Part shown: positions 617-23,859 of the stretch, piece after piece
How the letters are laid out: the number at the start of each line of letters is the position of its first letter
Position numbering within the stretch: the stretch's first letter is position 1
Notes under the pieces: model-generated
The model's input: the letters and a program-made list of their open reading frames with translations, nothing else
What the model was told of the DNA's origin: nothing
Database searches by the model: none
Translations under genes and position numbers: made by a program
NCBI GenBank assembly: GCA_943704525.1
Contig: CALSCQ010002021.1
Coordinates: 1-23,859, forward strand
Reading direction: 5' to 3'
Source: Pigoraptor vietnamica
Taxonomy: Eukaryota > Opisthokonta > Filasterea
DNA length: 23,859 bases

Positions 617-3239
617 TCAGTTGAGGTACACGACCTCCCGGTCTTCCACATCACGGCGACACTTTGGGCACTTTGGGAGCGCATGGACGCACGCCGAGCA
701 GAAGGCGTGCTTGCACGGGCGCAGCAGCATGTCGAGGGGTCGGTCGTAGCAGACCGAGCACGTGACCCCGGTGCCAGCCGAGTCCTCGTCGCTCTGCGTG
801 ATAAGGGGCGGCGATTGGGTCACACAACGGTCAAACTGGTGAAGGCGCCTCGATAATGTCACGTGAGCTCGCGATGCGCACAAGCAGCGTCCCTCGCGGG
901 CTTACCGAGGATGCAGAGAGAGCGCGGCTCAAGGAACGCCTGTGCGCTTTGACGAGCCGGACGAGTTCGTCCAACTTGTCCGCCGGGAGAGAGGCTGTAA
1001 CGGGCACCCATCACACACACACAAAAAAAAAGGTACGGCGTGAGTCACAGACGAAGACGGGATCGTTGCCTGAACACATGAACGAAGCAGAAGCAGAGCA
1101 CGGCCGCGGGTGGGGTGACTGGAAGAGAGAGGAGGGAGAGCCATTTGGCAAACTCACGCACCAATGTCAGACGCCTGTAGGAGGTCGCGTGTCACACGGA
1201 GCAACGCGATGATGCGCTCGTGGTCGCGCGCTTCGTTCGCTGGTGCTTGGTCGGTCGACGGCTGAAGAGGCCGACGGGAACGCCAACAGATGGAGGCGTG
1301 CATGTCAGAGTGTGGCGCGCAGAGACGTCCGCGCGTGCGATGTGTATGAGTGCGAAGACAAGAGGAGGTTGGCTCCGTTGAAGGCCTTTCACTGTGTCCG
1401 TGTCGGGGGCGAACGCGCGTTACAATGTTATAACGGACGATGCGCACCTTGGCAAGGGCCGCTGCCAGTTCACCGGCGAGAATTTCATTGCGGGCCCTAA
1501 GGGCGCTCAACTCCTCCTCGTGCCTGCACTTGGGATATGAGCACGCACACACGCGAACGGACAGGGTACACTGGGCACAAGCATGCCGGCACCTCAGCGT
1601 ACGGCTGAAAGCACATTCACCGAGAGACTTACAAGCGGTACGACAGAGAGCACGCATACGGACCGCTCAAAAGCACACCCCAAGAGCCCGCAGGCCGAGG
1701 GACGTCCGCAAACGAGAATGCGCCGGCAACAGGCAACGTGTGGCTGACGGGCCGAGCACCCTCGCGCCCTTTACATGTACTCATCGAATGATCACAAGAA
1801 TAAACACGCATGCGGCACATACACACGCGCGAGAAGCCTTTTAGAAGCCCACGTGCGAGTCACGGTGTCTGCCCCTAGCGTCGCACGCACTCTGGCCCAC
1901 AGAGACACGTGACATATACACGCCGACCAACACTGACGAGCGCATACGGAATATGGACTGAGTCAAACAACAACGCATATGGGGCATTGCGCCAAAAGGC
2001 ACTCGCCGACAGCAACCCCACACCCACATTTTCAAGATGTGTCGTGCGCACTTTGCGTCCTCCTGGGCCCGTTCCAGCTCTCCGGTCAAGTCGGCGGTTT
2101 CGCCCTTCCAGCACGCTAGCAGAAACTTGCACTTGAGAGCGTTCCTCTTCTTCCCGGCCCTCTTCCCAATGGCGTACTCCCTAAGCAACGCGGTTGCCTG
2201 CAACGCCCGGGAAAAAAAAAAAGAAGTGATGAGCACAAGCGATGCGCTCAAACACGCACGCAACTTTTGTGCCGACGGAGCACACGGCAAGCAACACGCA
2301 CCGGGGACGCGATCGTCACGAGGACGAGCGCCGACGCCTTGAACCACCCAGCGTATGCCGCATTTCGGACCAAGAAGGGCCTGTCGCAGCCGCCGTCCCT
2401 AACCACCAGCCCAGTCTCACCCGGCGCGAGGATGCCCTCGGGGCCCTCGACGTTCGGACAAAAGGTGGGCGCTAGTTGCACGAGCCGCCCGACGGTGATC
2501 TTACCGCAGAATGAATCCTTCACGCCGGCGCCGCAGCACGACCAGTGCGGGTACATTCTCTTTTCGACACTGTCGCCGCCGTGCACACACACGGCGCCCT
2601 CCACATTAGATGCGGACGAGCACCATTGCTTGCACTCGACTCCGCGCCACTCGCCCGAATGGGGGACGCTGACGGCGCGGCATGGCGCGTCCTCCATTGT
2701 CTCACCACAGCAAGACCAATGCGCCCGCGCGCAAACGCCATCGCCGTGCCCGCAGAAAGGGCCATCCTCCGCGCCCTGGAGAGAGCAACCGCCGCGCGCA
2801 CGCCAGATGCCGCTGTGGAGTGGCGGGACGAGCACGAGGTCGTGCTCACCGTCCTGGCCAATGCGGTAAAAATTTGCGTGGTCGGTGGCCAACCAGCGCA
2901 CGTGAGCCGACCTGCGCCGTCCGTGACTGTAAGTTGACTGAGGAAGGAAAGGGCACAAATGCGCACACGCACGCACCCATAGCGCTCTGCACACGCGCGC
3001 ACACCCACCCACAAACACTCTGCATGCACACATAAAACACACACACGGTCACACGCGCATACACACACAAACACTCTGCATGCACACACAAACACACACG
3101 CACGCTCACACGCACACACATACACACACACCACACACATACACACACACACACACATACACACACACCACACACACACACACACACCACACACACACAC
3201 ACACACACGCTCACACACATACACACACACACATACACA

Positions 3240-3286
<47 letters not shown>

Positions 3287-3307
3287 CACACGCGCACACA
3301 CACGCTC

Positions 3308-3346
<39 letters not shown>

Positions 3347-3439
3347 CACACGCACACACACACACACACACACTCTCTCTCTCTCTCTCACACACGCACA
3401 CACACACACACACACACACACTCTCTCTCTCTCTCTCTC

Positions 3440-3515
<76 letters not shown>

Positions 3516-6634: not shown

Positions 6635-8057
6635 CTATATTTCGTGCGACTCCTCCGTGTCGCTAATGTGCTTGACGCGCACGTAGCAGTCGACGCCGTA
6701 CCCGCTCAGGTTCTGCACCTGCAGCGACCCACCGAGAAACTGCGCGTACGCCCTCGTCATGGGCATTCCAAACCCCGTCGACGGCATCCGTCCAGAGTCC
6801 TCCGCGCTCACAAGCTGCCTCGCAATCGGCGGCACAGGCGAGTACCCATGCGCACCCCCCGACGCTGCAGCCGCGTGGTGCGACAGGCGCGAGGGTGACG
6901 GCACGTAACTCCACAAATAGTCGAGCGTCTCTGCGTCCATGGAACCTCCTTGGTCCGATACGCGGATCGTGATCTCGGTGCCGCCCTTACACACCGTGAC
7001 GACGATCGGCGGCGGAGCCGACGCGAGCGCGTGTTTTTCCATGACGGCGCGCATGCTGTTCTTGAGCACTTCGATGGCCATGTACTCAATGTGGCTCGGT
7101 ATGTAGGAAAAGGTCGCGCCAATGTGGCCCTCTATCTTCACCTCGGGGTGTGCGCCGTACGCACGGTCGCAGAGCTGCTGGACCTGCTGCGCGGCGCCCC
7201 ACACGACGCGCGCGGGGCTGCAGTGCTCGTCGACGATGCCGATGCGGCCAATGTGCGAAGCGCAGCCCGAGTGAAAGGCGTTGTGGAGGGCGAGGTGGTG
7301 TTCTGCAGCAGCAGATAGAAAAGGGAAGGAGGGGGGGGGTTGGGTTGAGTGGGAGGGACGCAAGTAGTTAGAGAAACGGGGTAGATACGCCATAAGAGAG
7401 CGCGACTAATACCGCACAGCACACAACCACGCAACGCGGTGCGCACACACGCATGAAGCCCGCACCTGCGAGCACGCGTCGGCTGATGCGCGTTCGGATC
7501 ATCTTCTCCAGAAAGTCGTTGAGCTCTCTTCGCGGCACGTGCTCGGCAATGTCGCGCACCGCCAGCGCAAGCGTCGGTATGACGTCCTTGTGCATCGCGA
7601 GGCAGTGGCGGAGGACATCGACGAACCCGCGCTCGTCCGCCAGCGTCCGGATCTCCGGAAAGTTCTTGAAAGCCTCAAACGCGTCCACGTAGCACTTGTA
7701 GACGACCTGAATGTGCGGGTTGCACCCGGCTATGAAGGGCAGCTGGTTCATGTCGCGAATACGCCGCGCCAATCGCACGCTCAGCTCGTGTCGCAAGCGT
7801 CGCGCGCTCTCCGTTAGCTTGTGCTCGTCGAGGCGAAGGCCCAGCTGCATCATCGACCGTATGGTCGTCCGGAAGGGCCGCTGACACGCGTACTCCTCCA
7901 CCGCGCCCTCGATCGAATAGGGTGTCGTCTTTGGGGATACATCGTGGGTGAGGCGCGTCGTCAAGTGCCTCGAGAGAACACGATGGTGCAACACGCGCAG
8001 GCACGACTGCGTCACGGCGACGGGCGATCGGCGCGCGTGAGCGACCAATGAAGCCAT
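6635..8057 (-). CDS. BCKDK: Branched-chain alpha-ketoacid dehydrogenase kinase (mitochondrial PDK family)
   Basis: Two exons in phase, 8057-7466 and 7302-6635; 419 aa, close to the usual length of about 412. It phosphorylates and shuts down the E1 subunit of the branched-chain ketoacid dehydrogenase complex in the mitochondrial matrix. The first 35 residues are Arg-rich without acids, as in a mitochondrial presequence. The N-terminal helical domain has RRLRHELSVRLARRI and LPFIAGCNPHIQVV, both close to BCKDK. The GHKL ATPase domain has the N-box at about 268-286 (E275, K278, N279), a G1 box DQGG at 314-317 and a G2 box STGFGMPMTRAYAQFLGGSL at about 372-391. The end (VKHISDTEESHEI) matches the BCKDK end rather than PDK, which carries a longer tail with a DW motif. 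G1 reads DQGGS where many relatives have GGG. Confidence 0.9.
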
Positions 8058-8205
8058 CAGCGCATGCGCGCGCCGTCACGGCACGCACGCGGGAGGCACC
8101 TGCGTGGTCGGCGACGAAAGCAAGCCCCAACACACACAATCGCACGACGCACGCAGATTTTTTGGGAGAATGCTCCAACGACTTGATGAGACGAACCCAC
8201 GCGGA

Positions 8206-8240: not shown

Positions 8241-8361
8241 CTTTTTCTAAGTACACGTTTCCTTCGTTCTAATTCTGAGGAGAAAGAGGCGTGTTGTGCA
8301 AGGTAAACTTTTGTGTGTATGCGGCCTTTGCACGTCATCACCTGACTGTTACGCGCGTAAT

Positions 8362-8374
8362 AGGTGGATGTTAC
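8362..8374 (+). promoter_or_regulatory. AGGTGGATGTTAC motif, copy 1
   Basis: Exact match to the 13-base motif at 12394-12406 and 14619-14631. Here it lies in the BCKDK upstream region, about 305 bases from the start codon and in reverse orientation relative to that gene. Function unknown. Confidence 0.45.
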
Positions 8375-10996: not shown

Positions 10997-12005
10997 TCAG
11001 TTTATCGGCGTGAGCGTATTGACGTGCATGTACCGCGAAAACAAGACGTACAGTCGCCTAAACCACACAAACTGCGACGCATGCGCGCGCATCGCACGCA
11101 CTGCTCTCACATAAGAGGCGGGCGAGGACACCGCCACCCTCTCGCACAACAGCAGAGACAGCGGGACGTCCACGAAGGACGCGTACTTTCGAAGCAGACT
11201 CGTCGTCTCGAGGGCCAGCGAACGGATCCCCTTCAGTTGGCCGCTAGAACACATGCTTCGCACGGCGCGATAGACGGCGCAGTGGTTTGCGTGGCCAGAA
11301 ACGCCCCCATCGTCGAAGGTGACCAGCACGGAAATGCCACCGGCCGGATCGCCGCCCACGCCTTGCGATGCGCGATCAACGTAGCTCGTAATGTGCTCTG
11401 CCACAACACGAAGGTCCCACTTGGCTGCTGGATCGTCCCTCAGACGCTTATCGTCCACAACAAAGACGCGAGATTCGTTCACACCAAGCACCTGCCAGAC
11501 GCATGTCGCGCGAAGTAAGCAAGAGTATTATGAATTCTCTTTAAGACGTGTGTGGAACAAACGCACCTTGCAGCTCTTTTCGAGCTCGTGCCTTCGCACG
11601 GATCCAAGGCCGTCGTAGTTGCCCGTGGAGAGGCACAGCACGTGGACGTTGCGTCCGTCGCGCGCAAGTCGGAGGATGGTGGGCGCAAAGAACATGCACT
11701 CGTCGTCGGGGTGCGCAATCACGACGAGGGCATCGCCATCGCGTGCCGGCTCGCTTCTGCGTGAGTGAAAGTCACACATACACACAGAACCCCTCAGTAA
11801 AATTACACGTACATATGAAACACCTCAGCACAGACCCCTATACTCCCACAATAATGAATACTGACCTCGCCTCTCGCCGCTGTCGCCTTGCGAGAACAAT
11901 CAAAAGAAGAAACACAAACACGTTCACGGCGACGAGCACTCCCTTCACGGCCAACTCGGCCGCTTGCACAGCACCATCGACTGCATCCCAGTCCATTTCG
12001 ACCAT
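10997..12005 (-). CDS. PIGL: N-acetylglucosaminyl-phosphatidylinositol de-N-acetylase
   Basis: Three exons in phase: 12005-11866, 11756-11567, 11491-10997; 274 aa, near the usual 250-ish. It removes the acetyl group from GlcNAc-PI, the second step of GPI-anchor synthesis, on the cytosolic face of the ER. A single N-terminal membrane segment (about residues 20-39, [17 protein letters not shown]) is followed by RRQRR. The LmbE/PIG-L catalytic domain has AHPDDE at 61-66 (zinc and general-base residues), [29 protein letters not shown] at 129-136 and [13 protein letters not shown] at 168-180 (the second zinc-binding element). The C-terminal third ([15 protein letters not shown]) also matches the family. 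An in-frame TGA upstream of ATG 12005 fixes the start, with M4 as the only close alternative. Confidence 0.93.
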
Positions 12006-12630
12006 TTTGACAGCGGGAAATCACAGTTAAAGGAGTACGATTGTCAATCGTTTTTCTGTGAAACTGCAAAACCTTCAACGTGGGCGTGTTACCGTTTGTC
12101 ACTTTTGAGCACCCCGGATGCGCAGTACGAGGACTAGAGTTATAGATTGTCCTGCTTTGTTCTCGATTGCTCAAAATAATTGAAATATAAATCACATTTG
12201 TATGAAATTTGTATTGAAACCAGGGTGTGAAATGGCCAGTGGTGGAGTCCGTCCAATTAGGAAATTTTCAGAGATTTGGTTTTGTGTGGCGCCTACTCAG
12301 TGCACCGCAGGGTGGGTGTTTCCCAATGCATTGGCCCTTGGTTGGGGTTACAAGTCACTGCAACATACAGTGAGGGTCTCCAATTTGAATGCAAGGTGGA
12401 TGTTACGCCACTGCAGGCAGAGGTGGATGTTTACATTTGGTGTAGGGTGGGAGTTATGTGTGTCTGGGTGGCCACACCCCTCACGATGTGTGCTCAAGGG
12501 CTCCTCGGCGCATCTCGCACACAACGTTCAAAGCAAAAGGCACTTTGACTTGGCATTTTCTTCAGCATCTTTGCTCCTTTATCCTCTTTTGCGCAACGCG
12601 GGCGTAGCATTGCGCTCGATCGTAAGGAGG
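12006..12630. promoter_or_regulatory. Divergent promoter region, PIGL and TTHB210-like gene A
   Basis: 625 bases. The PIGL-proximal half is more AT-rich than the rest of the window. The gene-A-proximal part (about 12300-12480) contains several related G-rich units (GGGTGGGTGTTTC, AGGTGGATGTTAC, AGGTGGATGTTTAC, AGGGTGGGAGTTATG), followed by a CCACACCCC box. Open frames here encode nothing recognisable. Confidence 0.5.
12394..12434 (+). promoter_or_regulatory. AGGTGGATGTTAC motif, copy 2, with an adjacent degenerate copy
   Basis: Exact 13-base copy at 12394-12406, about 225-237 bases upstream of the gene A start codon. A second copy with one extra T is at 12421-12434, and a looser GGGTGGGAGTTATG lies just downstream. 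Confidence 0.5.
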
Positions 12631-13160
12631 ATGGCCCGCGCCCTTGCTGTCTTCGCCCTCGTGGGCTGTGTGCTTGTCGGCTTTGCTCTTGGCGAGCGTG
12701 AGTGTCCTCGTTTTTGTGAGCCTGCATCCTATTCACGATGTAATGCCCCGTAGTGCCCCGTAGAAATGACGTTGTGTTGTCTGAGGCGAGGTTGATGCAT
12801 GCGTCGGTCGTCAGATATGCATATCAGTATGCGTTATTGCTCGCTATTGTTCAGACGCATAACACCTTCTCGCGTTGCGACACACAGGCGTCTCGAAGAC
12901 GTTTGATCCGGCCAACTTCGGCTTCACGAAGGGCGACGATAACGCGGTCTTTACGACGTACGTGGACCGGGATGCCTCTGGCAAGCCGACGGTCGTTGGG
13001 TTCTCGTGGCCCGACTTTGTGTCTGGCCGCCTCGGGCTCCCCCCGCACCCTGCCGTTGCGATGCTCGAGATGCCCGAGGTCCGCGACGTGCCCTACAAGA
13101 CGTTCGAGTTTGACTGGAACAACGGTGGGTTGATCTGAATATGCCTCGTGCGTGCGTGCA

Positions 13161-13206
<46 letters not shown>

Positions 13207-14422
13207 TGTGGGCGCTCGTGGCAAGCAGGGCGTATTGTCGGTCACTTTCTAACCGACTCTTCACCCCTGGCTACGTTAGGGGGCCACCCTGGCGGTCTCT
13301 CGCTTGAGGACCGCGTCATCTACGACTCGCTCACACCGGGTGAGGAGCAGGCGCTCTTCCTCGTTCAGCACGGCGCGTGGATGGTCCCCCACTTTGACAT
13401 GCACGCGTACCACGTGGACATGTCGTACATTAGCGGCATCCAGCCGTGCTCGTCGTTCCCGCCGTGCGTTTTCGACCCCGCCATGATGGGCAAGACGATG
13501 AACTATCCCGCGGCGCGCTTTTTCCCGCCCAACTTCAAGCCGAGCCTCTACGCGGCGGTCCCCATGATGGGCATCCACTGGTGCGTTTTTCTCTTTTTTT
13601 TTTCCTGTTTTGTTTCGTATCTCACTCTTCCCCTCTCAACGCACCTCAAAACCGCGCGCGCTCGTTGTACGTTGACCTTATTCTCGGACAAGACCCTGCC
13701 TCACTCGCAATCCTGTTTGCGCTTGCAGGGACGACGTCACGGCGGACGTGACGCCAGAGTCGTATGCCACGACCCCCGCGATCATCTACGGTTCGTGGGA
13801 CGGCCGCATGATTTTCACCGAGGCGATGCCCGCCAAGAGCAACCTCGAGGCCATTCGCTCGTCGGCGTCCAAGATGCAGGTCGGCTCGCTCATGCGCCCC
13901 TCGCACTTCCAGCGCAGCGGCTACTACGCCAGCAACTACCGCATCTACTACAGCGCCGAGACGAACAACTTTTATTACGAGCTCTTCGACTTTGACTACT
14001 TTGAGGGTGAGTGGATGGCACGTGAGCCGCTCTGTCGGCGTCGGCTGTCTTCCTTCGCACCGTGTCGCGCATGTCGCTTGTTGGGATGGCACGTGAGCCG
14101 CTCTGTCGGCGTCGGCTGTCTTCCTTCGCACCGTGTCGCGCATGTCGCTTGTTGGGCCGTGGTCGCTGACGCCCTGCCTGGTTGCCGCACACAGTGGATG
14201 ATGAGTATGCCGATGACGAGTGGTACGAGAAGTTCAACAAGTGGCAGGTCCAGTTTAAGGTGCGTTGTTGTCGCATTGCGCCCTGTATCTGTGCCGGCAC
14301 CCTCCCGCTTCTTACATGTTAATCTGTGCCTGATGTTGAGTTTCTGACGCTGTTCGTTTCACTTGCAGGCGTGGAAGGCGAACGCTGGCTCGTGCAACAC
14401 GCCGCCGCCCGGCATGCCGTAA
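12631..14422 (+). CDS. Secreted TTHB210-like (DUF5602) protein, tandem copy A
   Basis: Six exons in phase: 12631-12697, 12888-13124, 13280-13580, 13729-14006, 14195-14259, 14369-14422; 333 aa. Residues 1-21 form a signal peptide (MARALAV, hydrophobic core, ALGE). The mature part shows DFVSGRLGLPP, then GGHPGGLSL (102-110), VPHFDMHAY (137-145), a PCSSFPPC Cys pair (158, 164), VPMMGIHW (195-202), and PAIIYGSWDGRMIFTEAMPA. The GHPxG, PHFDxH and MGxHW run matches the bacterial DUF5602/TTHB210-like family. The Thermus member TTHB210 is controlled by a sigma-E system and its biochemical role is unknown to me. The His/Asp motifs look like a metal site; that is inference. A third Cys (325) is near the C-terminus. 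Not known to me in eukaryotes. Confidence 0.85.
13141..13208. repeat. (GT)n with GTGC flanks in gene A intron 2
   Basis: CGTG repeats surround about 28 bases of GT repeats within intron 13125-13279, in sense orientation. Confidence 0.9.
14013..14154. repeat. 71-base perfect tandem duplication in gene A intron 4
   Basis: Copy 1 is 14013-14083 and copy 2 is 14084-14154; I find no mismatch. It lies wholly in intron 14007-14194. Perfect identity suggests recent duplication. Confidence 0.93.
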
Positions 14423-14975
14423 GGCGCGAACTCAGTCGTGCTTCAGTGCTCAGTCGCCGTCCTCGACCTGGGGACGAATGTAATTGCCTGACAGCATTCT
14501 CACCGTGGCGTATGTGAGTCACGGTCGCAGCGTAGGGCAGAGCAAAGTTCTCAACAACCCAAGCCGGCGAATGCAATTGTTAACCCTCATCAAGGGTGGA
14601 AATTATGCGGTTGGTGTAAGGTGGATGTTACAGATAGTATGCACAGTGGGGATTAGCGAGACCGACCACACCCCCTGGGGACTAAATTGGCCGCATTTGG
14701 CTCGACGGGGCGGTGACCCACTCCTCGTGCCTCTTCATCCCAAAAAACGCATCTTTGCCTTTCTTCAGACCTCACGCCGATTCGTTCATTATTTTGAGAG
14801 ACGCCGTTATCTGCTTGTGTAGTTGAAACGATCGCTCAGCCACCGACGGACTCGGCGCACTGCTCCAGCCGGCGGCTCAGGCACCGCGGTTGAGACATTA
14901 GGCGACAGACTCGCACTGAGGGCGTGGGGGTCTCGTTTTAGGGGATTCTCTATCGCTTGCGTCCGCCCGTTTAAT
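14423..14975. promoter_or_regulatory. Spacer and promoter between TTHB210-like genes A and B
   Basis: 553 bases. It holds the third AGGTGGATGTTAC copy and, about 45 bases further, a CCACACCCC box, the same order as upstream of gene A. No gene or RNA seen. Confidence 0.5.
14619..14631 (+). promoter_or_regulatory. AGGTGGATGTTAC motif, copy 3
   Basis: Exact 13-base copy about 345-357 bases upstream of the gene B start codon, preceded by GGTGTA as also seen near 12438. A possible shared control site of the two paralogues. Confidence 0.5.
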
Positions 14976-16841
14976 ATGGCGCGAGGCATCGCGCTGCTCC
15001 TCGTGAGCCTTGCCCTTCTCAGCGCTGTTGCGGGCGAATGTAAGTCTGTGTCAGATTGAGTTGTCGCCAGGCTTGTGTTGCGCCCACTCTTGCATTTTTG
15101 CGAGTAAATGTTGTCTCCTGTCGTTGCTCACCAAAGTGCGTGGCGTGACTGCGTTCATATCTCAAAATCTGAGCGGCGGGCGTGTCTTTTCAGTATTGTT
15201 GTTGCTACTGTACTGTCCAGAATTGCCAAATGACCCTCACGCCATGTCCGCCGCTGTGTCTGCAGACCATGTCAGCGTGTTCAACCCTGCCGACTACGGG
15301 TTCGAAGTGGGCGACTCGCACGCCGTGTTCACATTGTACCTCGACACCAATGCGACGGGCGAGCCCAACGTGGCGGGCTTCCGGTTCCCCGACTTTACGA
15401 CCGGGCGCCTCGTCCTTCCGTCGCACCCCATGACCACGTCGTTTGACGTTCCGTCGTCCGTCGAGCTTCCATACAAGATATTCTCGTTCGATTGGAACCC
15501 AAGTGAGTGCATGTCCATTGTTGGCTGTTGTGATCATGAGTGCCTCAGTCTGTCAATCTCCATTCATTTCGATTGTCGTGCAAGCAATGTGTGGCCGGCT
15601 GAACCCCGGCTGTCTTTCATATATGCCGCATTGGTCAGACAGTGCCCGTAACGGTTGCCGGCTGTGGCGATGCTTAACATGTGGCTCCGCTCCCCCGGTT
15701 GATTTTTGCGATCCCGTCTGCTCACTGGTTTTTGAAATTCCGACCTTGAGTTCGTTTGACTTCGCTTGAACTGACCGATGCATTCATTCCCCCGCAACAC
15801 TCAGACGGGCACCCGGGCGGCCTCTCCCTTGCGGACCGCGCCACGTACAACAAGCTGCCAGATAGCCAGAAGGCGGCGTTCCTTGCACAGCACGGCGCCT
15901 GGATGGTCCCCCACTTTGACTTTCACCTCTACCACGTCGGCATTGATTTCCTCGACGACATCCAGTGCGAGGCGTTCCCCCCGTGCTCCCTCAGCGCGAA
16001 CCAGAAGGCGGCGGCGACCAATTACCCGCCGGCGCGCTTCCTTCCGAGGCACTACGTCCCGGACATTAACACTGTCGTGCCGATGATGGGTCTCCACTGG
16101 TGGGTCCCTAATCTATTGAGTGTGGACGTGTCGTGAACTATGCCGTGAGCCGAACAGCAACAGTTTCCTGTGTAGATCTGTCCGTACGCCTCCGTCGGCA
16201 AGGGAACTGGAGTCTCGTCCCCACAGGCTGAAGACGTCGTCATGTGTGCCGGCCGTTGTGCTAATCGCAACTCCTCCCTTTCATTGTCAGGGACGACGCG
16301 TCAGAGGACGTCACTCCCGCGCACTATGCCGCCAACCCTGCCGTCATTTACGGCTCGTGGAACGGGCGCATGATCTTCACGGAGACAATGCCCGCCAAGA
16401 GCACCTTTGAGACGATTCGCGCGACGGGCGCGACGTACACCGGCTCGCTCAAGCGCCCGCTGGCGTTCCAGCGCACGGGACACTACGCAGGGCAGTTCCG
16501 GATTCACTACGATTCCGTCGCCGAAGAGTTCGTCATCGAGATATTCGACTTTGAGCGCATCGAAGGTGCTTAGTGTTTCTATGCCAACCCTCACTGCTGT
16601 TGTTGGTAGCACGCAGGGAATTGAAGCCGTCGTGCCTGACATTCCGATTCGCGCGCGTTGCAGTGGATGCTGCGTACGCCCCCGACGAGTGGAGGGAGGC
16701 CTACGGAGAGTTCACGAGCTCTTTCGAGGTGCGTGCGCGTTCGTTGGCTCAGTTAATCCAGACACAGCGTTCATTCCGACTCACCCGAAATGCGCACGCA
16801 TTTGATCGCAGACGTGGAAGAGGAACAGCTGTAACAACTGA
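14976..16841 (+). CDS. Secreted TTHB210-like (DUF5602) protein, tandem copy B
   Basis: Six exons in phase: 14976-15039, 15266-15502, 15805-16099, 16291-16565, 16664-16728, 16812-16841; 321 aa. Residues 1-21 are a signal peptide (MARGIALLLVSLALLSAVAGE). Family motifs: DWNPNGHPGG (97-106), VPHFDFHLYHV (135-145), QCEAFPPC (C155, C161), VPMMGLHW (192-199), PAVIYGSWNGRMIFTETMPA. C319 sits near the C-terminus, matching C325 of copy A. Exons 2 (237 bases) and 5 (65 bases) are identical in length to copy A, and all five introns have the same phases (1,1,2,1,0), so the pair arose by duplication of an already intron-bearing gene. Introns have diverged fully. Secretion or cell-surface location is inferred from the signal peptide; no membrane anchor seen. 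Confidence 0.85.
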
Positions 16842-18542: not shown

Positions 18543-18578
<36 letters not shown>

Positions 18579-18591
18579 GCACACAACACAC

Positions 18592-18628
<37 letters not shown>

Positions 18629-18641
18629 GCACACAACACAC

Positions 18642-18728
<87 letters not shown>

Positions 18729-18863: not shown

Positions 18864-19417
<554 letters not shown>

Positions 19418-20107: not shown

Positions 20108-21403
20108 GTGCGTCTATGTAGCTCGTGTGAGAGTGCGTACGTGCGTTCACGTGCGCAGGTGCGTGTGTGTGCATGCGCCCTCACAGACACACACACTCGT
20201 GCGCTTTGCAGAATCAGGCGGCTGCGAATGTGTGTGTGACGGACAAGATGATTGCGGATGCCATTGCGACCATCGGCGGCGCAGTCACAATGGCCTATCC
20301 CATGGGCCTGCCTCCTCACGAGCACGTGAAGGCCATCCTCGAAGACGACGAGGACCTCTCGGGCACGCAGGTGCGTCACACACACGTCACTCGTGCGTGC
20401 TTCTTTCACACGTCACTCGTGCGTGCTTCTTTGCCGCTGTCTCTGCGGGGACTGAACTGCGCTGTTTGTCGGAGTGCGCATGGTGTGCTTGTGTGGGATG
20501 CTTACTTCGCGTTACTCATATTTGGCACGTTCACAAGCATTAAGTTCGCACTTGTCTGTTGCATTCCCTTAGCATCCCTTTCCCCTCAACGTCCCAACAA
20601 CCCCACACTCCCTGTGTTTGCAACGTGTGACCATGGGTCGATGATTTACACGTCCCCCATCTCGCTGGCGCAGGCATCGCAGGCGGTGATTGATCCCGCG
20701 CAGGCGCAGCTGTGGTGGGCGGGGAAGGAGCTCCTCCGCGACAAGAAGCTTGGTGACTTTGTGGGCCGAAATGAGAAGACAAAGCTCATAGTCAAGATCC
20801 AGAAGGTGCGTGCAGTCCCCGCGAGCGCATGTGCGTGCGTGTGCAGATGCCAATAAGTGTGGACTCTGTGTGTGCGTGCGTGCGCGGGGCTGCTTGGTGC
20901 TCTGCTCTCTTGTGTCGTGTTTGTGTTCGTGTTGGTGTGTGTTTTGTGCTCGTGCGTTGTTCTGACCGCTCGTGTCACGTGGCCGCAGCGGGGAGCGGGC
21001 GCCCCAGTGCGCGAGCCTGCGGTTGACGAGGCGACGCAGCGACAGCTCATGGCCATGTACCACAAGAAACAGGAGGAGCTCAAGGTGGGGCGGCGCTTAT
21101 GCAGCGCACACATAAGCAACCCTCACCGACTCACAGACTCACCGCCTCACACCGACCCACACCGACCCACACGGATCCGCACACTGAACTTGCTCTGCAC
21201 GTCCACTCATTACTATCACGCTTCACACCGCGCACTCGCACTCGCCATTCACGTGCACTCACATGCGAACTTACCTCGCGCATTTCGCACAGAGGATTGA
21301 GGCTGACGACTCGGATGCCTACCATGGGGCGGCGTGGGCGGACACAAGCGCCCTCAAGCAGTCGCTGCGCGGTCTGGACAACGTCGGCTGGCGGCCGCGG
21401 TGA
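19418..21403 (+). CDS. CFAP298: Cilia- and flagella-associated protein 298 (C21orf59/Kurly)
   Basis: Seven exons in phase: 19418-19556, 19721-19888, 19956-20023, 20212-20370, 20674-20805, 20989-21084, 21293-21403; 290 aa, the same length as the human protein. The family works in the cytoplasmic assembly of dynein arms and in motile-cilium function. Conserved landmarks in order: MVVLHVKRGDESLFLFQ at the N-terminus, NGRLRVERLCE, HGVCLPPNMQGLTPEQIEEM, VCVTDKMI, YPMGLPPHE, EDLSGTQ, QLWWAGKELLRDKKLGDFVG, NEKTKLIVKIQ, RGAGAPVREP, MYHKKQEELK, and VGWRPR at the end. Every exon junction falls inside these landmarks without gaps, so the model is secure. It shows that the organism makes motile flagella at some stage. 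Confidence 0.96.
20077..20107. repeat. (GT)n microsatellite in CFAP298 intron 3
   Basis: About 15 GT units in sense orientation inside intron 20024-20211. Confidence 0.9.

Positions 21404-21693: not shown

Positions 21694-23859
<2,166 letters not shown>

Follow-up and report, generated by a model that had tools for sequence, protein, structure and literature searches.

Two neighbouring genes, A and B, on a contig of the filasterean Pigoraptor vietnamica encode proteins with motifs of the TTHB210-like (DUF5602) family known from bacteria. The locus raises the questions of whether the two proteins truly belong to this family, how such genes came to be in the genome of a holozoan, and what the proteins may do. 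The window analysed is one whole contig of 23,859 bases, and the assembly searched comprises 32.5 Mb in 1395 contigs. Published genomes include those of Pigoraptor vietnamica, P. chileana and Ministeria vibrans, as stated in the part of PMC9492541 consulted; they are deposited in ENA under PRJEB52884.

Organisation of the gene pair

Genes A and B lie in tandem (Table 1). Each has five introns, all 10 with GT–AG boundaries, with phases 1, 1, 2, 1 and 0 at aligned positions in both genes; the open spliced frames bear out the preliminary description of a tandem pair with six exons each and identical intron positions and phases. Intron 2 is located one or two codons upstream of a conserved GH in both genes and therefore about four codons before an insertion described below. 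The products are identical at 165 of 321 aligned residues (51%). Since the divergence of the genes is considerable (NG86: dN 0.40, dS 0.93) and the corresponding introns are little alike (short, weak similarity only, with best local scores of 15–22), A and B are old conserved paralogues and not a recent copy. Both N-termini, read by eye, resemble signal peptides, and the secretion of A and B is likely on this ground. A 14-mer, AAGGTGGATGTTAC, occurs upstream of both genes; this motif and its GGTGG[AG]TGTT-like variants are enriched across the whole genome and are not particular to the pair.

Table 1. Coordinates of genes A and B and of their features in the window.
Feature	Position	Strand	Remarks
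Gene A	12631..14422	+	333 aa, 6 exons; open spliced frame, GT–AG; homologues P0001 and P0002
Gene A exons (stop included)	12631-12697, 12888-13124, 13280-13580, 13729-14006, 14195-14259, 14369-14422	+	
A exon 1, signal-peptide-like N-terminus	12631..12697	+	Sequence read by eye
A residues 106-130, insertion between H104 and PHFDxH	13291..13365	+	Filled in <10% of 83 prokaryotic rows
A PHFDMH (H139, D141, H143)	13387..13404	+	Conserved in 82, 82 and 80 of 83 prokaryotic rows
A MMGIHW (H201)	13564..13580	+	His in 81/83 rows; intron 3 (phase 2) interrupts the Trp codon
A exon 4, with YGSWDGRMIFTEAM (E233)	13729..14006	+	Glu in 82/83 prokaryotic rows
Gene B	14976..16841	+	321 aa, 6 exons; 51% identity with A; introns agree with those of A in position and phase
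Gene B exons (stop included)	14976-15039, 15266-15502, 15805-16099, 16291-16565, 16664-16728, 16812-16841	+	
B exon 1, signal-peptide-like N-terminus	14976..15039	+	Sequence read by eye
B residues 105-128, same insertion	15816..15887	+	A/B alignment
B PHFDFH (H137, D139, H141)	15909..15926	+	Alignment with prokaryotic rows
B MMGLHW (H198)	16083..16099	+	Trp codon split by intron 3
AAGGTGGATGTTAC, 14-mer upstream of A	12393..12406	+	More GGTGG[AG]TGTT-like motifs nearby, 12309-12460
AAGGTGGATGTTAC, exact 14-mer upstream of B	14618..14631	+	

Relationship to the TTHB210-like family

A search of A and B against Pfam found 0 families at E up to 1, as did a search with P0001, the closest homologue; the DUF5602 model PF18197 gave no score on any of the three and no match in a six-frame search of the host genome. 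The lack of a significant DUF5602 match had been named beforehand as one of the outcomes that would refute the proposal, and, read to the letter, this outcome was obtained. The model is only 50 residues long and corresponds to residues 67–122 of the prokaryotic-type protein P0002, N-terminal to the conserved His motifs; the relationship was therefore rested on full-length homology to proteins that bear PF18197.

Using phmmer with A against 5.8 billion proteins, two matches were obtained among 2007 candidates. P0001 (E 7.9e-86, 46% identity) is the product of a Pigoraptor chileana (Opistho-2) transcript in EukProt; P0002 (E 6e-11) carries PF18197. The identity of clone Opistho-2 with P. chileana is given in the portion of PMC7147346 consulted. 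A profile that included P0002 matched 675 proteins, the best 120 of which were P0001, the only one labelled eukaryotic, and 119 proteins with PF18197. A profile of the three eukaryotic sequences gave 30 matches among the 8000 best candidates, with PF18197 present in 26 of the 29 besides P0001; both profile searches scored about 8000 candidates, and most of the matches are unnamed. An hhalign comparison of the eukaryotic sequences with 48 prokaryotic ones gave a probability of 100 and E 2.5e-43 over 226 columns. Together, these comparisons place A and B in the prokaryotic TTHB210-like/DUF5602 family, as had been proposed from their motifs, despite the lack of a PF18197 score.

A scan of prokaryotic species genomes with the pattern PHFDFHF, which passes over family members with a different motif, found 322 relatives among 404 stretches, and 80 were kept; these best 80 loci represent 14 named phyla (5 of the 80 are without a phylum) and include two from Methanosarcina. 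In the preliminary description, the Thermus member, TTHB210, is said to be controlled by a sigma-E pathway; control by a sigma-E/anti-sigma pair is not a feature to be expected in a eukaryote. The section of PMC4153023 available names the sigE–TTHB212 operon and does not name TTHB210.

Conserved residues and eukaryotic additions

Residue conservation was assessed in an alignment with 83 hand-picked prokaryotic rows (43 of 148 proteins and 40 of 80 loci). The first conserved His, in the column of A H104, is retained in 80 of the 83 rows, and the other positions are comparably constant (Table 1). All six candidate ligands (four His, one Asp and one Glu) are retained in A, B and P0001, as are the near-invariant H, HxDxH, MGxH and FxEPM residues apart from the Pro; the Pro that follows the conserved Glu is present in 78 of the 83 prokaryotic rows and is replaced by A, T and T in the three eukaryotic proteins. 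The prokaryotic alignment agrees with the proposal of PHFDxH and MMGxHW as family motifs, the latter in the form MGxHW. GHPGG, also taken for a bacterial motif, is not one: the prokaryotic proteins inspected mostly have GHEPPGxYD or close variants, and the eukaryotic PGG opens an insertion.

The linker between GH and HFD is 36 residues long in A, 35 in B and 36 in P0001. It measures 8–11 residues in 146 of 148 prokaryotic proteins (the other two are without HFD) and 10–12 in 77 of 80 prokaryotic loci (three are not measurable); because they depart from this short linker of 8–12 residues, A, B and P0001 were classed as a variant. The pattern GGLxxxDR...FLxxHGAW in the insertion is common to all three, and the model of P0001 folds the insertion into two helices with moderate confidence (block pLDDT 69–75).

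Two further stretches, an 8-residue Cys loop (A 160–167) and a C-terminal stretch (A 300–320), are filled in fewer than 10% of the prokaryotic rows. Recomputed positions of the Cys residues, 158/164/325 in A and 155/161/319 in B, are as claimed. Where A has its four Cys, 0 of the prokaryotic rows carry Cys, and two of these columns are mostly gaps in prokaryotes. P0001 has three Cys in contexts matching those of A and B, the first being offset by one or two residues in the alignment; it also shares the insertion and the C-terminal extension.

The eukaryotic proteins thus resemble the family in the 226-column homology, in the same His, Asp and Glu residues, in PHFDxH and MGxHW, and in a similar order of strands (two models, DSSP), and differ from it in about 25 extra residues after GH, the 8-residue Cys loop and a C-terminal helix; A and B differ also in carrying introns. 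A, B and P0001 are a eukaryotic variant of an uncharacterised prokaryotic family and not a new system.

Prokaryotic gene neighbourhoods

Among 92 operon-like neighbours of the prokaryotic genes, no recurrent partner was found, and no Pfam family occurred in more than 3 of the 92. The term “undescribed system”, used in the preliminary description, is too strong for what is an uncharacterised protein family. When read by eye, 10 of 11 annotated plasmid regions contained an oxidoreductase or oxygenase, copper or haem/iron gene within 5–6 kb; such genes are common anyway. The context in Rhodococcus opacus includes P450, SRPBCC and hemerythrin genes, that in Azoarcus a tryptophan halogenase, and two contexts in Chroococcidiopsis include copper genes.

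Structure models and possible function

The models of P0001 (mean pLDDT 81) and P0002 (mean pLDDT 90, block means of 92–99 over residues 41–280) are both beta-rich. A search of the PDB by sequence found no match, and a search by fold with both models found no clear solved relative, which does not by itself demonstrate a new fold. In both models the His-x-Asp-x-His motif lies within a single predicted strand (E143–149 in P0001, E137–143 in P0002); with PHFDFH in one strand, its His, Asp and His alternate with other residues and are expected to share a face. MGxH and FxE are also in predicted strands, and the first conserved His is in a loop.

In cupins and other beta folds that bind metal through His and Glu, the strands bear several His together with one acidic residue. 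A and B could be likened to cupins in this respect, as an idea only; they have no Pfam match and the models no clear structural match, but they may nevertheless have a fold of this kind. A metal site formed by the conserved His, Asp and Glu is plausible from the alignment and the models, with chances that appear about even. Within the beta-rich fold, the four His, the Asp and the Glu would line a single metal-binding pocket; the helical insertion would cover or modify this pocket beside the first His, as a lid, and disulfides would stabilise the secreted form. An enzymatic role of A and B is suggested with some reserve, falling short of even chances; the most likely activity would be metal-dependent small-molecule chemistry, either in the extracellular space or in a predator's food vacuole.

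It is unlikely, though not strongly so, that A and B are instead secreted non-enzymes that bind metals or small molecules for sequestration or transport. The conserved set is rich in His, and the two related Chroococcidiopsis plasmid contexts adjoin genes for copper-binding proteins and heavy-metal ATPases, as would suit such binding proteins; however, the near-invariant Asp and Glu would also suit a catalytic site, and 9 of the 11 annotated contexts, read by eye, are not metal-resistance clusters.

Evolutionary history

In a tree of 66 rows, A, B and P0001 form one clade with a support of 100/100. The stem of this clade is 1.7 changes per column long, and the clade lies beside two actinobacterial rows in a set with 96/88 support; because the eukaryotic branch is so long, a donor cannot be named from the tree. 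The grouping of A with B to the exclusion of P0001 reaches only 95/43, and the duplication may therefore be older than the separation from the Pigoraptor lineage of P0001; neither of the alternative pairings is rejected (p-AU 0.37 and 0.48). The simplest reading is a single acquisition in an ancestor of these holozoans, with the duplication either preceding or following their separation: a gene transferred once, long ago, from a prokaryote would then have gained introns and been duplicated. The sequence of transfer, intron gain and duplication proposed earlier is the best-supported candidate history, one for which the tree resolves no donor clade.

Since no donor was found and the stem is long, we also considered an ancient eukaryotic family passed on by vertical descent, with losses in almost every lineage; this is improbable. 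The eukaryotic clade stands on its long branch outside any sampled prokaryotic clade, and the introns and paralogues indicate that the genes are not recent. Against vertical inheritance, the 5.8 billion proteins searched, EukProt included, yielded one protein labelled eukaryotic (among the best 120 of 675 matches, with about 8000 candidates scored per profile and most matches unnamed), whereas the family is spread across 14 named prokaryotic phyla in the best 80 loci.

More improbable still is that P0001 derives from the prey of Pigoraptor or from another contaminant, in which case the two eukaryotic occurrences would not both be holozoan. Opistho-2 was cultured on Parabodo caudatus (PMC7147346, in the part available), and contamination of Pigoraptor cultures by this species is on record (PMC9492541, likewise in part). 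However, P0001 is the nearest relative found to A and B, and the genome that carries A and B has holozoan marker genes: Runt (one match, E 3.1e-52), T-box (several matches, best E 1.1e-64) and integrin beta (E 2.1e-51), each matched in 0 of 14 control genomes, and cadherin (47 matches on two contigs), matched in 1 of the 14. A search of the host genome for chlorophyll-binding protein gave no match. Taken together, these results indicate a holozoan, closest in character to a flagellated filasterean. Cadherin and integrin are also among the Pigoraptor transcripts mentioned in the accessible text of PMC7147346.

Using A and P0001 as queries, the genome search matched only A and B among the best candidates scored, exon by exon, on one contig. 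Of the neighbouring coding stretches, 5 of 10 had Pfam matches; these neighbours include a branched-chain ketoacid dehydrogenase kinase (BCDHK, in two parts), an RNA cap guanine-N2 methyltransferase, the cilia and flagella protein CFAP298 (matching part of its profile) and a PIG-L-like stretch with a match below the cut-off of the family. The GC fraction of third codon positions, 0.86 in A and 0.83 in B, is near the 0.70–0.82 of four neighbouring coding stretches; in the introns, GC is 0.49–0.66. Bacterial contamination or mis-assembly of the contig, which the otherwise prokaryotic distribution of the family might suggest, is scarcely credible and already largely contradicted by the five introns in each gene model, the eukaryotic neighbours on the same contig, their similar GC3, and the insertion common to P0001 and absent from the prokaryotic proteins measured.

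Considered as a whole, it is slightly more likely than not that A and B, as TTHB210-like family members, go back to one transfer, intron gain and duplication, and that their products are secreted, with a metal-binding pocket, a lid formed by the insertion, and disulfides.

Significance

A large prokaryotic family of unknown function is hereby extended to eukaryotes close to the animal lineage. A more specific reading, put forward tentatively, is that A, B and P0001 represent a branch, confined to eukaryotes, of a secreted prokaryotic family with uncharacterised chemistry and possibly an unrecorded fold, acquired once by unicellular organisms closely related to animals and provided with a helical lid over the conserved His/Asp/Glu pocket. 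Because the predicted domain is of high confidence and has no clear solved relative, solving a single structure would shed light on many hypothetical proteins. The eukaryotic members add testable features of their own, namely the insertion and the Cys residues, and as further examples they may help to find the chemistry of the family.

A repeated motif upstream of the paralogues

The motif GGTGG[AG]TGTTA is present upstream of the tandem TTHB210-like genes A and B (two copies, their position relative to the genes being read in the window) and at other loci of the same assembly. At some sites it forms same-strand groups with a spacing of 20–80 bases. Across the genome it occurs 231 times and in reversed form 25 times; the corresponding numbers for the 14-mer AAGGTGGATGTTAC are 12 and 0. 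The motif may be a species-wide regulatory element.

Features of the window and of other contigs of the same genome
Feature	Position	Strand	Remark
GGTGG[AG]TGTTA motifs	12309–12460, 14600–14640, 8361–8374		also at locus L106 and other loci of the genome
Intron 2 of A	13125–13279		
Intron 2 of B	15503–15804		
Tandem duplication inside intron 4 of A	14013–14154		perfect 71-base tandem duplication
Branched-chain ketoacid dehydrogenase kinase	6638–8075	-	neighbouring gene, Pfam match
PIG-L-like stretch	11000–11527	-	Pfam score slightly below its cut-off
CFAP298	20131–20853	+	neighbouring gene, Pfam match
RNA cap guanine-N2 methyltransferase (TGS1-like)	21972–23519	-	neighbouring gene, Pfam match
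Long (CA)n arrays	3037–3515, 18546–18728, 19142–19244, 23745–23859		
Runt, T-box, integrin beta, cadherin arrays	contigs C739, C844, C791, C1344, C123, C661, C928, C1328, C874		outside the window

Introns and simple repeats

In both genes, the conserved GH lies one to two codons 3′ of intron 2 and the eukaryote-only insertion starts about four codons after this intron; the insertion might therefore have arisen at an exon edge. The perfect tandem duplication in intron 4 of A suggests a recent local event. One long (CA)n array extends up to the contig end and may be the reason the contig stops there.

Holozoan marker genes

This one protist genome encodes Runt, integrin beta, four almost full-length T-box domains and long cadherin arrays, a combination of use to studies of animal origins.
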